Source: Parcubacteria group bacterium (GTDB taxonomy: Bacteria; Patescibacteriota; Minisyncoccia; Phycocordibacterales; Phycocordibacteraceae). From it: 42,078 nt of DNA. Numbering within the stretch: position 1 is the stretch's first letter; every line of letters starts with the position of its first letter. This document shows, in pieces, positions 2,818 to 40,570 of the stretch. Both the position numbers and the translations under genes were made by a program. The stretch lies in contig JAQBRL010000022.1 of the NCBI GenBank assembly GCA_028286525.1, positions 1 to 42,078 of the forward strand. The letters are read 5' to 3'. A model generated the notes under the pieces. It worked only from the letters and a program-made list of their open reading frames with translations, did not search any database and was not told the DNA's origin.

Positions 2818-2940
2818 CGAGGTCGCTGAAAAAGTTCATAGACAAGGCACGGGCACGGGATGAGCGGAGGCGTATTCTCATACGGTGCAGCGAGAACCGG
2901 GGACCCGTAACGCAGGATATGGACTTTTTCAGTGGGCTCG
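2818..2940 (+). repeat. Family-1 structured intergenic element, copy A
   Basis: Arms CGAGGTCGCTGAAAAAGTTCATA / TATGGACTTTTTCAGTGGGCTCG. Core AAGGCACGGG...GAGCGGAGGCGTATTCTCATACGG...GGACCCGTAACGCAGGAT. Three related copies elsewhere in the window. Confidence 0.8.
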
Positions 2941-5379: not shown

Positions 5380-5481
5380 ACGACTCCTACGGTTTTTTGG
5401 CACAGAATATTTTCCCGCTGGAAAATTTCTTCCTGCTCGGCTCGTCAGCCTGCGCAGAGTCCAAAAAACCGTAGGAGTCGT
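5380..5481. repeat. Family-2 nested-hairpin element E1 with perfect 21-bp inverted repeat
   Basis: ACGACTCCTACGGTTTTTTGG (5380-5400) and CCAAAAAACCGTAGGAGTCGT (5461-5481). Inner hairpin ATTTTCC-CGCT-GGAAAAT, then CTGCTCGGCTCG. Confidence 0.75.
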
Positions 5482-10519: not shown

Positions 10520-11722
10520 ATGAATCATCTCAAAAAACTCAAATACCTCCTCATACCTACTCTCCTCATTCTCTTTGCACTGGTAGTGGCAGTAAGTCAT
10601 TATACTTTCCCCGTGCAGGCGGGTGGCCTGTATAACCTCACGCTCGACGCGGTATATATGTCGGACCAGTGGCCACCGCCCCCATTCTCATGGGGCGACT
10701 GCCAATTCCTCCAGTGCAATGGCCCGGCCGATGTGGGGAAGACGTGCGAAACCCACGAGCGCTCGAATTTCTACTATTGTTATAACGGCGACACGGGTAA
10801 TTGCGGCAATCAAGCGGACTCCACATATTCCTGCAAAGGGCCTCCCTCCTGTGTGCCGGACAATTCTTGTGCGACCAATACCTGTAACACCACGAGCTGT
10901 GGTGACGGGTGCGGCGGGCAGGTAATTGGAACGAAAGTGTGCGGCCCGGTGTGCTCGCCCCTTATGGGCCAGGCCTGCAACCCCCTGAATTCCTGCAGCA
11001 TGGGTAATCCTGGTGGCCCGGGTACCCGCTTGTGCGATGGGTCCTGCTCGGTATCCGCGCCGCCCGACTCCTCCTGTCCTGCTACCTGCACCCCTTCCTA
11101 TTGCGACTCTGCAGCGAACATTTGCAGTGGGGACACCTGCACGGTAACCGCAAGTGACTGCAGTACTGCCGTAGTCTCCGGAACGAAAGACTGCGCTGCA
11201 CCTCCTGGGGCCACGGCAACACTCAGCGCGACGCCTACCAGCATACCGCTCGGAAGTTCCGCCACGCTTACGTGGAATTCCACGAATGCGCCTTCATGCA
11301 CCGGCTCGGGCTTCGTCACGGGAGGCGCCCCGAATGGTTCTATAAGCGTCTCGCCAGCCGTTACTACCACGTACCATGTCACGTGCGGGGGCGCGACATC
11401 CCTACCAGTCACCGTCACGGTTACCGCAGGAGCCTGTACCGCCGGACCCGTTTCGCTTACGGTGACTCCCGATCGAGTACAGACCGGAGTACCGACGAGC
11501 GTCACGTTCACCTCGAGCGCGCCGAGCGCGCTCGGCAATTGCACGCTCTCGGGCCCGGGTATGAGCACCCAGACCTACACACCATCGTCGTGTTCCGTCC
11601 CTCCTACTGCCTACAAGCCCATGCTTACGCTTACCGATCAGTCGACCTATACGCTTGCATGCCCCGGCGGTCGCACCAGTCAGGTGATCGTGAACATAGT
11701 GCCGAAATACAAGGAGTTCTAG
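10520..11722 (+). CDS. Secreted Cys-rich multidomain protein (module copy 2)
   Basis: Signal peptide MNHLKKLKYLLIPTLLILFALVVAVSHYTFPVQA; CVPDNSCATNTCNTTSCGDGCGG; Ig-like PTSIPLGSSATLTWNSTNAPSC; C-terminus VIVNIVPKYKEF as in copy 1. Confidence 0.75.
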   Translation: MNHLKKLKYLLIPTLLILFALVVAVSHYTFPVQAGGLYNLTLDAVYMSDQWPPPPFSWGDCQFLQCNGPADVGKTCETHERSNFYYCYNGDTGNCGNQADSTYSCKGPPSCVPDNSCATNTCNTTSCGDGCGGQVIGTKVCGPVCSPLMGQACNPLNSCSMGNPGGPGTRLCDGSCSVSAPPDSSCPATCTPSYCDSAANICSGDTCTVTASDCSTAVVSGTKDCAAPPGATATLSATPTSIPLGSSATLTWNSTNAPSCTGSGFVTGGAPNGSISVSPAVTTTYHVTCGGATSLPVTVTVTAGACTAGPVSLTVTPDRVQTGVPTSVTFTSSAPSALGNCTLSGPGMSTQTYTPSSCSVPPTAYKPMLTLTDQSTYTLACPGGRTSQVIVNIVPKYKEF

Positions 11723-11723
11723 C

Positions 11724-11843
11724 GAACCCCGTGGAATCCTCCCCATACTGCGTTATGGGTCCCATCGCCTCACTTCGTCGTATCTTCGAATACGCCTCGC
11801 TCGGCGATTTCCCGTGCCTTATCTGAATGATTCCACGGGGTTC
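11724..11843 (-). repeat. Family-1 structured intergenic element, copy C (minus orientation)
   Basis: Perfect 15-bp arms GAACCCCGTGGAATC / GATTCCACGGGGTTC. Minus-strand core AAGGCACGGG...GAGCGAGGCGTATTCGAAGATACGACGAAGTGAGG...GGGACCCATAACGCAGTATGG. Confidence 0.8.
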
Positions 11844-14636: not shown

Positions 14637-15875
14637 CTACCTCCAAGCCCGCTTGGTGCCGGTAGCCACGTCGGTTAATGCCCGTACCAGCCAGAACGGC
14701 GCGATGAGTCCGTACAGCAGCGCGTACCCGATAATGCTCATCGTAAGGTCGGTCTTGGTATTCGATACCCGTTGGCCCATGAGAATGAACGAGGTAGAGA
14801 TGATCATCACCACGATGGAAAGGAAGGTAATGAAGCTCACGGGTGCATAGAGCCACTCAAGCGAGAAGCGAGGCATGAGGATGTAGGTAAGGGGTACTCC
14901 GGAGGTCACCAGGATCGTGTGGATGAGGTCCCCGCCGAGCAGCGCGAGCGCGAGGATGAAAAGACCGACGCCGCCGATAACCGCGACGAACCCGAGCGGG
15001 AGCACGAGAAGCCCCAGCACCCCGTACGAAGGATTGGCCACCAGGTCGCGGTAGTCGCCCATCACGTTGCGCAGGAATCCGGTGGTCCAGCGCGTGCGCT
15101 GCTTGATGAGCTTGGTCACGTGACGGGGCACTTTCGTATAGACGCGCGCGCGCGGCGCGTTCTCTATCTCGTAGCCTGCCCGCTGCATGCGCAGCGCCAT
15201 CTCCATGTCCTCCGCCTGGTGCGCGTGACGGAAGCCGCCCACTTTCTCGATAACGGAACGGCGGTACAGCGAGAAAGGCCCTGGCGTCACGTAAATGCCG
15301 TTCACCGCCGAAAGCGCATGGCGCAGCGCGATACCGAAGATGTACTCGGCATTCTGCATTCGTTCAAGGAGATTCTTCGGCTCGAAGACCGACATGGCAG
15401 GAGTGCTCGCGGCCACCTGGGGATCCTCGAACGCCGCCATCATCTCGCGGAGCGCATCCGGAGCGACGAATGAGTCGGCGTCGAGGCAGCCGACGAATTC
15501 GCAATCGGAAGCGATTTCGATGCCTGCATTGATGGCGGTGTGCTTACCGCCGTTCTCTTTATGGATGACCGTTATCTGCGGGTTCGAGCGATAGGACTCC
15601 ATCACCGTCTTCGTATTATCGGTCGAGCCGTCGTTCACGAGAATGAGGCGCAATTGGCTTTTCGGATATTCAAGATTGAGAAGGGATTCGACGGTACCGC
15701 CGATGGTGCTCTCTTCGTTCCAGCAGGGAACGATGATGGCGACCTTCGGCGCCTTGTCGGTGGCCGGCCGCAGGCGCCGCGCCCGAGCAGGGGCCGAGAG
15801 GAACGTAAGCAGCATGAAGACCTCGAAATAGAGGCCGAGGAATATAAATGGATATGCTAGGACTTCCAGATGCAT
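14637..15875 (-). CDS. Family 2 glycosyltransferase, processive polysaccharide synthase type
   Basis: APKVAIIVPCWNEESTIGGTVESLLNLEYP...VNDGSTDNT...GCLDADSFV...QAEDMEMALRMQRAG...QRTRWTTGF (QxxRW), multiple TMs. Start MHLEVLAYPF chosen because the longer ORF start at 15920 lies inside copy D. Confidence 0.92.
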   Translation of the reverse strand: MHLEVLAYPFIFLGLYFEVFMLLTFLSAPARARRLRPATDKAPKVAIIVPCWNEESTIGGTVESLLNLEYPKSQLRLILVNDGSTDNTKTVMESYRSNPQITVIHKENGGKHTAINAGIEIASDCEFVGCLDADSFVAPDALREMMAAFEDPQVAASTPAMSVFEPKNLLERMQNAEYIFGIALRHALSAVNGIYVTPGPFSLYRRSVIEKVGGFRHAHQAEDMEMALRMQRAGYEIENAPRARVYTKVPRHVTKLIKQRTRWTTGFLRNVMGDYRDLVANPSYGVLGLLVLPLGFVAVIGGVGLFILALALLGGDLIHTILVTSGVPLTYILMPRFSLEWLYAPVSFITFLSIVVMIISTSFILMGQRVSNTKTDLTMSIIGYALLYGLIAPFWLVRALTDVATGTKRAWR

Positions 15876-15882
15876 AGTGAGT

Positions 15883-16004
15883 GGACCCGCTAAAATCCGC
15901 AGCTGCTTTGTTGCGGACACCTGTCCAGCTCATCCGTCGTACTATGAGTACGCCTCCTTCGCTGGCCTGTCCGCGCCTTGCATCTACTGATTTTCGCAGT
16001 GTCC
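15883..16004 (-). repeat. Family-1 structured intergenic element, copy D (minus orientation)
   Basis: Minus strand GGACACTGCGAAAATCAGTAGATGCAAGGCGCGGACAGGCCAGCGAAGGAGGCGTACTCATAGTACGACGGATGAGCTGGACAGGTGTCCGCAACAAAGCAGCTGCGGATTTTAGCGGGTCC with nested complementarity. Confidence 0.78.
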
Positions 16005-16070: not shown

Positions 16071-16793
16071 ATGCCTCCCGGCCGCTTGCATCCCATCAGC
16101 GTCGCTATCCGCGAGTTCGCGGAGATATTCGGCCGCATGGGCTTCAATATCGAGTACGGTCCTGAGCTCGAAGACGAGTGGCACAATTTCACCGCCTTGA
16201 ATGTCCCGGCCGATCATCCGGCGCGCGATATGCAGGACACGTTCTGGACCAAAGAAGCCACGCCGCGCACCCCCCGTACGCACACGACTTCCGTCACCAT
16301 CCGCCTCTTGGAAAAGATGGCTGCCGAAGGTCTCACCACGTATCGCGCTATCGCGCCGGCGAAAGTATTCCGGAATGAAGCGACCGACACGACGCATGAG
16401 GCGCAGTTCTATCAGCTCGACGGGTTCGCCGCAGGTCCCGATATCACTCTGGCGCATTTGAAGGGGACGCTGGAGCGTCTCTATCGCGAATACTTCGGAC
16501 CGGACGCACAGATACGTTTTCGCCCGAGCTACTTCCCATTCACCGAGCCATCGGTAGAAGTCGATATGTGGTGGCAGGCACCGGGGAAAGAAGGACGCTG
16601 GCTCGAGATGTGCGGCGCGGGCATGCTGCATCCGAATGTGATAGCCAACGCCGGCCTCGATCCCGAGAAGATACAAGGCTTCGCGTTCGGCGGCGGACTC
16701 GAACGGCTCGTGATGGTGAAATACGGCATCCCGGACGTACGTCTTTTCCATGGCGGCGACATCCGCTTCACCGAAGCATTCTCGCGTACGTAG
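16071..16793 (+). CDS. pheS: Phenylalanine-tRNA ligase alpha subunit, short form
   Basis: MPPGRLHPISVAIREFAEIFGRMGFNIEYGPELEDEWHNFTALNVPADHPARDMQDTFW...FAFGGGLERLVMVKYGIPDVR. Confidence 0.95.
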   Translation: MPPGRLHPISVAIREFAEIFGRMGFNIEYGPELEDEWHNFTALNVPADHPARDMQDTFWTKEATPRTPRTHTTSVTIRLLEKMAAEGLTTYRAIAPAKVFRNEATDTTHEAQFYQLDGFAAGPDITLAHLKGTLERLYREYFGPDAQIRFRPSYFPFTEPSVEVDMWWQAPGKEGRWLEMCGAGMLHPNVIANAGLDPEKIQGFAFGGGLERLVMVKYGIPDVRLFHGGDIRFTEAFSRT

Positions 16794-26630: not shown

Positions 26631-26791
26631 TCGCATAGCGAGAAAGTCGCAGCTACGTTCTCACGTGTCGTATTTCGCATATTCGCCTCGTGGCGAAAAC
26701 TCCCTCAAGCGCTTCGCTAGACGGGAGTTTTCTGCTCGGCTCTGTGCGAAATCACTCTGCGTTCGGTTAAGCGACTTTTCTCGCTATGCTC
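26631..26791. repeat. Family-2 nested-hairpin element E2
   Basis: Outer arms (GCATAGCGAGAAAGTCGC / GCGACTTTTCTCGCTATGC), ATTTCGCA/TGCGAAAT, GAAAACTCCC/GGGAGTTTTC, then CTGCTCGGCTC. Confidence 0.65.
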
Positions 26792-26837
26792 GCTCCGTTC
26801 ATTGGGAGTTTCTCTTTTGGCATAACGAAGCGAGCGT

Positions 26838-26993
26838 CTTCGAAAATAAAGGACAACCTGGAAGCAGCCGGAGCGCAAGGAATACATAAAAGAAATGACC
26901 GACCAAGCGGAGCGCGTGGCGGCATTTCTTGCGATGGATGACTGTGCGTCTCCGTGTCGCCCTGGAAGGCGAAGTCCTTCTTTATTTTCGAAG
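26838..26993. repeat. ~155-bp segment bounded by long inverted repeat
   Basis: CTTCGAAAATAAAGGAC (26838-26854) vs GTCCTTCTTTATTTTCGAAG (26974-26993). Confidence 0.6.
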
Positions 26994-27067
26994 GCGCGAG
27001 CGAAGCTTCATGAAAGCTTCAGCCCCCAAGCTATATCACTACGGGAAGGAAACGAGCTCGCTGACAA

Positions 27068-40059: not shown

Positions 40060-40178
40060 GGTTGTCGAAAAAGCTCCAGAGACGAGGCACGGAGAGTGAG
40101 GAGCGGAGGCGTATGCGGCTATACGACGAAGCGACGAATGAGGCTCCGTAACGAAGTATATGGACTTTTTCGGCAAGC
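40060..40178 (+). repeat. Family-1 structured intergenic element, copy B
   Basis: GGTTGTCGAAAAAGCTCCAGAGACGAGGCACGGAG...GGAGCGGAGGCGTATGCGGCTATACGACGAAGCGACGAATGAGGCTCCGTAACGAAGTATATGGACTTTTTCGGCAAGC. Confidence 0.8.
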
Positions 40179-40198: not shown

Positions 40199-40570
40199 AT
40201 GTCAGTTCGAATGCGCCACACGAGTTCGCACACCAAGAACCGCCGGAGCCACCATGCTCTGACGGGTACCAACGTCGTCGTCGACAAGGAGTCCGGCGCG
40301 CTCCGTCTTCCGCACCGCCTGGACGAATCCACCGGCATGTACCGCGGCAAGCAGATAGTCGCCAAGCGCGAAGTGAAGAAAGCGGAGCAGAAGGAGAAGG
40401 CGAAAGCCAAGGCGAAGGAGCACGACCACGAGGTGGCGACCACCAATACGAGTCCGGCTGCCGAGAAGCACATCAAGACGGAAGAGCGCGAGAAGAAAAC
40501 GCAGGGAGTGCTCGGACGCATGATCACGGGCCGCGCCAAATCCCGTTCCGGCTTTGGAGGAGGAGTGTAG
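40199..40570 (+). CDS. rpmF: 50S ribosomal protein L32 with long charged C-terminal tail
   Basis: [53 protein letters not shown], then K/E/A-rich extension. Confidence 0.85.

Follow-up and report, generated by a model that had tools for sequence, protein, structure and literature searches.

In this study, four related intergenic repeats were examined in the window, the 42,078-nt stretch of DNA analysed here, which comes from a Kaiserbacteria-type genome of 715 kb (G000). All four were present where an earlier note on this DNA had placed them, copies A and D on the forward strand and copies B and C on the reverse strand (Table 1). Copy A lies just past the stop codon of the aldolase gene in sense orientation, and copy B follows the placement described below (antisense, next to a stop codon). 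The order of parts described in the earlier note held, with small motif corrections in three copies: copy B has GCGAGGCG instead of GGAGGCG, copy C has AACAAAG instead of AACGMAG, and copy A has ATACGGTG instead of ATACGACG after the apical stem. The arms of the window copies were paired, and each copy folded far more stably than dinucleotide shuffles (z values of -6.6, -7.0, -6.6, and -4.0).

Table 1. Copies of the repeat in the window and parts of copy A (positions are those of the window)
Feature	Position	Strand	Context
Copy A	2818..2940	+	Between class-I aldolase gene and bL25 gene; covariance-model match 99.9 bits
Copy A, 5' arm CTGAAAAAGTTCATA	2826..2840	+	
Copy A, conserved core (covariance-model match)	2834..2924	+	
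Copy A, apical hairpin CGTAT-TCTC-ATACG	2871..2884	+	
Copy A, 3' arm TATGGACTTTTTCAG	2918..2932	+	
Copy B	11724..11843	-	Directly after TAG stop 11720-11722, antisense to that gene; uS2 gene start 11900
Copy C	15883..16004	-	Between divergent GT2 (14637-15875 -) and PheS (16071-16793 +) genes
Copy D	40060..40178	+	Upstream of bL32 gene (40199-40570 +)

Hairpins of other families were also observed in the window. At positions 5380-5481, a perfect inverted repeat of 21 bp enclosing 60 nt formed the strongest stem in the genome scan. The regions 26633-26789 and 26834-26997 belong to two additional families of long hairpins, of which near-identical copies, arms included, are present at C34:18446-18602, C21:18295-18455, and C23:5920-6083 of G000.

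When only copies A, B, and D were used to build a covariance model, the model recovered the unused copy C (E-value 4.5e-9) and detected 14 further copies outside the window in G000; with a model built from 18 sequences, the total in this genome was 21. The earlier note had proposed scanning the complete genome and related CPR genomes with such a model, and both scans returned matches. Among the 59 relatives scanned, 25 genomes belonging to 8 of 25 genera contained 1 to 21 copies each, and many members of the same genus were without any match. In the scan of the phylum, for which stricter filters were used than for the 59 relatives, 34 of 389 genomes matched. The distribution of the family is patchy.

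A pattern scan of named genomes detected the family in Wolfebacteria, Nomurabacteria, and Harrisonbacteria. Strong matches outside the phylum were found in MAGs and isolates labelled Acidobacteria, Deltaproteobacteria, Alphaproteobacteria, Clostridia (Firmicutes), and Anaerospora, the scores of the pattern-scan loci being somewhat inflated because the search pattern is itself part of the model. That these loci are real is argued by further copies occurring independently in L282, L292, L304, and L332 and by full-length arms. Tandem copies approximately 120 bp apart were present in L282 (890-1224), L304 (1738-2093), and L331 (766-981); one copy was situated within a tRNA gene cluster of Anaerospora hongkongensis (L330, 2101-2191) and another just upstream of an FMN riboswitch (L324, 2476-2565). 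Viral spread was considered and set aside, the single pattern match in IMG/VR not being a model match. No Rfam 15 family matched the element at the gathering score, nor did an E-value scan around copy D place one over the copy; in the literature, no paper was found describing the family or printing its terminal repeats. The earlier note had not recognised a named family in the element, and Rfam 15 gave none either.

Almost the entire element forms a single long, imperfect hairpin. Its core has the form AGAUGC-RAGGC...CGCAACRMAG-GCAGAU around GNAG-N-CGUA..UACG-RYG, with purine-purine internal loops. The constant letters are located mostly in these loops, RAGGC opposite AACRMAG and GNAG opposite CGRA, and are rich in purine-purine opposition. 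In the core and in both arms, pairing was kept while the letters changed. In an alignment of 18 genome copies, both sides had changed in 18 of 25 pairs, and 0 of 500 shuffles reached the observed values. An alignment of 88 matches from the scan of genome contigs, mostly from other genera and some from other phyla, showed 23 of 25 pairs changed on both sides, a score of 0.603 (0.164 when shuffled), and 582 doubly changed cells (171 when shuffled). Compensatory change had been suspected from the four window copies, among which alone it is thin; with 18 and 88 copies it is overwhelming, and covariation measured against shuffles was strong in both alignments. For the outer arms, complementarity was -20.0 kcal/mol within a copy versus -10.2 kcal/mol between copies. 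This signal extended no more than about 30 nt from the core and was gone at 31-60 nt; no boundary emerged from a stem-extension test in which pairs could continue into random flanks.

The two strands of the element are not equivalent. A decaying palindrome is expected to lose pairs equally to G-U and A-C. On the reported strand, G-U pairs outnumbered A-C pairs in the core (107 vs 42), in the arms (112 vs 49), and in the second alignment (117 vs 44), and in 159 of 161 copies this strand folded more stably than the other. These results indicate that pairing is kept on one strand only and that the fold has been selected on the reported strand, as RNA or as single-stranded DNA. The GC skew of G000 was too weak for comparing the orientation of the copies with replication.

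The copies are placed mostly at gene ends. In two sets of copies, a stop codon of an antisense ORF was found within 40 nt of the 3' edge of the core in 52 of 75 and 37 of 61 cases. For sense ORFs, a stop codon at the 5' edge was seen in 20 of 75 and 11 of 61 cases; control positions 300 nt away gave only 2-3. Distances to the stop codon were mostly 0-21 nt and fell into two clusters, 12-18 nt, where the arm ends, and 0-5 nt, within the arm. Relative to the gene next to them, most copies have antisense orientation, often with genes of the other strand on both sides. The abutted genes are housekeeping genes, which from their C-terminal sequences we take to encode RpoC, S15, S1, SecY, GreA, GyrA, and RseP. 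At several orthologous gene ends, a copy is present in more than one family of the order, with arms that are changed yet paired.

Other palindromes were seen at gene ends as well. Downstream of rpoC and rpsO in relatives (L139, L148, L150, L151, and L173), short palindromes directly follow the stop codons, with a TCNGA-like centre and variable arms, e.g. AAGGTCAGACCTT. A separate family of structures, 140-190 nt in length, has a shared branched core (GCTCTCGGAG...GCATGGTAATTT...GACGCGTACC) and perfect arms of 15-21 bp that are wholly different between copies. It occurs in G000 at C13:16215, C10:9242, C21:8145, C21:14722, and C29:14607, on C29 of G008, and downstream of rpoC in G000 (L155).

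Mobility of the element was demonstrated by recent copies in two genomes. G343 contains 7 near-identical copies in unrelated flanks, and G361, also a CPR genome, contains a second such set. These copies have the exact ends TAGGACTTACGC...GCGTAAGTCCTA, which form terminal inverted repeats (TIRs), and the bases outside them form a direct repeat of exactly 5 bp that was perfect in 7 of 14 cases. The mean match of this repeat was 4.07 of 5, compared with 1.91 +/- 0.30 in shuffles, the best of 2000 shuffles being 3.21, and the flanks in G343 and G361 showed no excess of direct repeats at lengths other than 5. Two further copies with perfect 5-bp repeats were found in L045, from a relative in the order of the window's genome. 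Target duplications were not visible in the old Kaiserbacteria copies as a set, nor in any of the window copies, which are older copies. Clean empty sites were also found: at two sites that are filled in G002, with 142 and 133 bp, the relative G016 has 15 and 16 bp. At the rpsA site in G008, a different palindromic element is present.

The element is approximately 120-205 bp in size, non-coding, and present in up to about 21 copies per genome. The 31 TIR matches in G343 and G361 were either paired 150-205 bp apart or single. No transposase was found between the ends, and no TIR pair in these two genomes encloses more than 205 bp, although single ends or diverged ends might still bound a longer unit. 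Ends of the form TA...TA were present in 49 of 161 copies, compared with 11 expected from the background, and had suggested TA as the target duplication, as in Tc1/mariner elements; this was ruled out by the 5-bp duplication lying outside TA. The TA is part of the terminal repeat, and the flank match beyond it runs exactly 5 bp. The differing arms at orthologous sites had likewise raised the possibility that the arms derive from the target site or that the element inserts into existing palindromes; recent copies, however, share their arms. In L276, L335, L338, and L344, the same core is bounded by other ends (TAGCCCGCATTTCTCACC), and the IMG/VR contig L385 has TAGCCCGCATTTCTCACC ends without a model match to the core. 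One core with several end types, together with the same ends without the core, suggests from these few cases that core and ends may be interchangeable parts.

Several explanations are possible for such a repeat. The strong covariation and the strand preference would both be expected of a structured non-coding RNA or a 3'-UTR RNA element domesticated at many gene ends, with a fold selected in place, e.g. for RNase or protein binding, and mobility secondary or long past; the copies that different families of the order share at orthologous gene ends, their arms changed but paired, also favor it. We nevertheless regard it as rather unlikely, since most copies are antisense to the adjoining gene, often between two genes of the other strand, their presence is patchy even inside a genus, with empty sites, and the element is freshly mobile elsewhere in the phylum. 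Of the structured RNA put forward in the earlier note, the single-strand fold conserved on one strand therefore stands, while the RNA form remains putative given the antisense placement. That the copies act as bidirectional transcription terminators of their neighbors is suggested by the adjoining stop codons and by the A-tract/T-tract pairs flanking the core, but it is very improbable: rpsA in G002 has a separate GC hairpin with a T-tract after the element, copy C lies between divergent genes and copy D just upstream of a gene start, terminators are not characterised by conserved internal loops or by pairing outside the T-tract, and the strand that corresponds to the mRNA of the abutting gene folds less stably.

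The earlier note also suggested a REP/RAYT-like element. Movement of such an element as single-stranded DNA, by a Y1 transposase of the RAYT/TIRYT type, would account for the fold kept on one strand and for the tetranucleotide GTAG or GGAG that stands at the 5' base of the apical hairpin; GTAG-/CGTC-tagged palindromes and TIR-flanked Y1 genes are known (PMC3733652). This explanation is highly improbable because G000 lacks Y1 genes despite its roughly 21 copies, a copy is often missing from genomes that have 5-7 Y1 genes, and none of 30 Y1 loci holds one. The 5-bp target duplication is, moreover, not known as the mode of Y1 transposition. Genes for Y1 transposases of 215-330 aa are common in the relatives (36 of 59 genomes) and unrelated to the element. 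An integron attC site was also considered because of the antisense orientation of the folded strand relative to the abutting gene; the dispersed housekeeping neighbors and the 5-bp duplication speak against it.

We conclude, with a probability of about 0.85, that the four window repeats represent old copies of a MITE-like, non-autonomous hairpin transposon of about 120-175 bp, a reading to which the recent mobile copies, the empty sites, and the lack of a transposase between the ends lead. Among the proposals of the earlier note, a hairpin-ended non-autonomous mobile element is thus the one borne out, by TIRs, 5-bp duplications, empty sites, and patchy copy number. The following points count against it: no transposase could be linked to the family among the PF13358 and Y1 types examined, target duplications are not visible in the window copies or in the old Kaiserbacteria copies as a set, copies at orthologous gene ends also fit a long-term function in place, and the interior of a plain MITE requires no strand-specific fold. 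A transposase supplied in trans would recognise the terminal repeats and excise the element, which would then be inserted at a 5-bp staggered break; the reported strand may act as a folded single strand, perhaps ssDNA, during mobilisation. Insertion at gene ends would be tolerated, as the reading frame can be terminated by the terminal TAG/TAA of the element or by a stop within the arm.

The folded strand being mostly antisense to the abutted gene, neighboring promoters would seldom make it, and selection is more likely on ssDNA or on a transcript of the element's own than on the mRNA of the gene. We tentatively favor a role of the core as ssDNA, with a role as RNA a close alternative. Conservation of the core across several phyla suggests that the core itself has a function. 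It is conceivable, although we hold this with some doubt, that the core is an independent folded single-strand module, acting as ssDNA in mobilisation or as RNA, which has spread through many bacterial phyla by pairing with different terminal repeats, and hence with different transposases; it would then be a parasite of DNA transposons, or a helper to them, selected for its own three-dimensional fold.

MITEs are usually viewed as deletion relics of insertion sequences, with an interior free to drift. The present family reverses this expectation, its interior being conserved on one strand only, in several phyla, with several end types, and in genomes of 0.5-1 Mb; a testable function for the core is thereby predicted. 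The orientation rule, antisense and 0-21 nt from stop codons, bears on how such elements persist in compact genomes, and the covariance model can be used to annotate an unlabelled class of repeats in CPR genomes.

GTAG-tagged REPs with RAYT and TIRYT-associated TIR repeats (PMC3733652) are likewise palindromic dispersed repeats with GTAG at the hairpin foot. Unlike REPs (20-40 bp), the element is much larger, has a 5-bp target duplication, and shows no link to a Y1 gene. The bacterial MITEs RUP, Correia/NEMIS, and ERIC are reviewed in PMC2229807 and PMC10969869. The transposase type proposed for RUP is IS630-type DDE_3 (PF13358). This domain was found in only 1 of the 59 relatives, one without a copy, and was absent from the carriers among them; a RUP-like MITE of the IS630/Tc1-mariner group was rejected, the duplication being 5 bp outside TA rather than the 2-bp TA. 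ERIC of Escherichia coli resembles the element by eye in forming a single long, imperfect hairpin with an AAGGC internal loop, a GAGC-stem-GUGA apex, and TA ends. Homology was not supported, one E. coli ERIC copy scoring not above noise (5.4 bits and E 1.1 with model R2; short fragments, at best 3.8 bits, with R3), and ERIC is taken as an analogue rather than a demonstrated relative. Like RUP, Correia/NEMIS, and ERIC, the element is about 100-200 bp long, lacks a gene, is intergenic, and has TIRs, a target duplication, long stable stem-loops, and often TA at the termini. It is different from them in that TA starts the terminal repeat, the duplication is 5 bp, and one folded core has been kept across several phyla and several types of terminal repeat.
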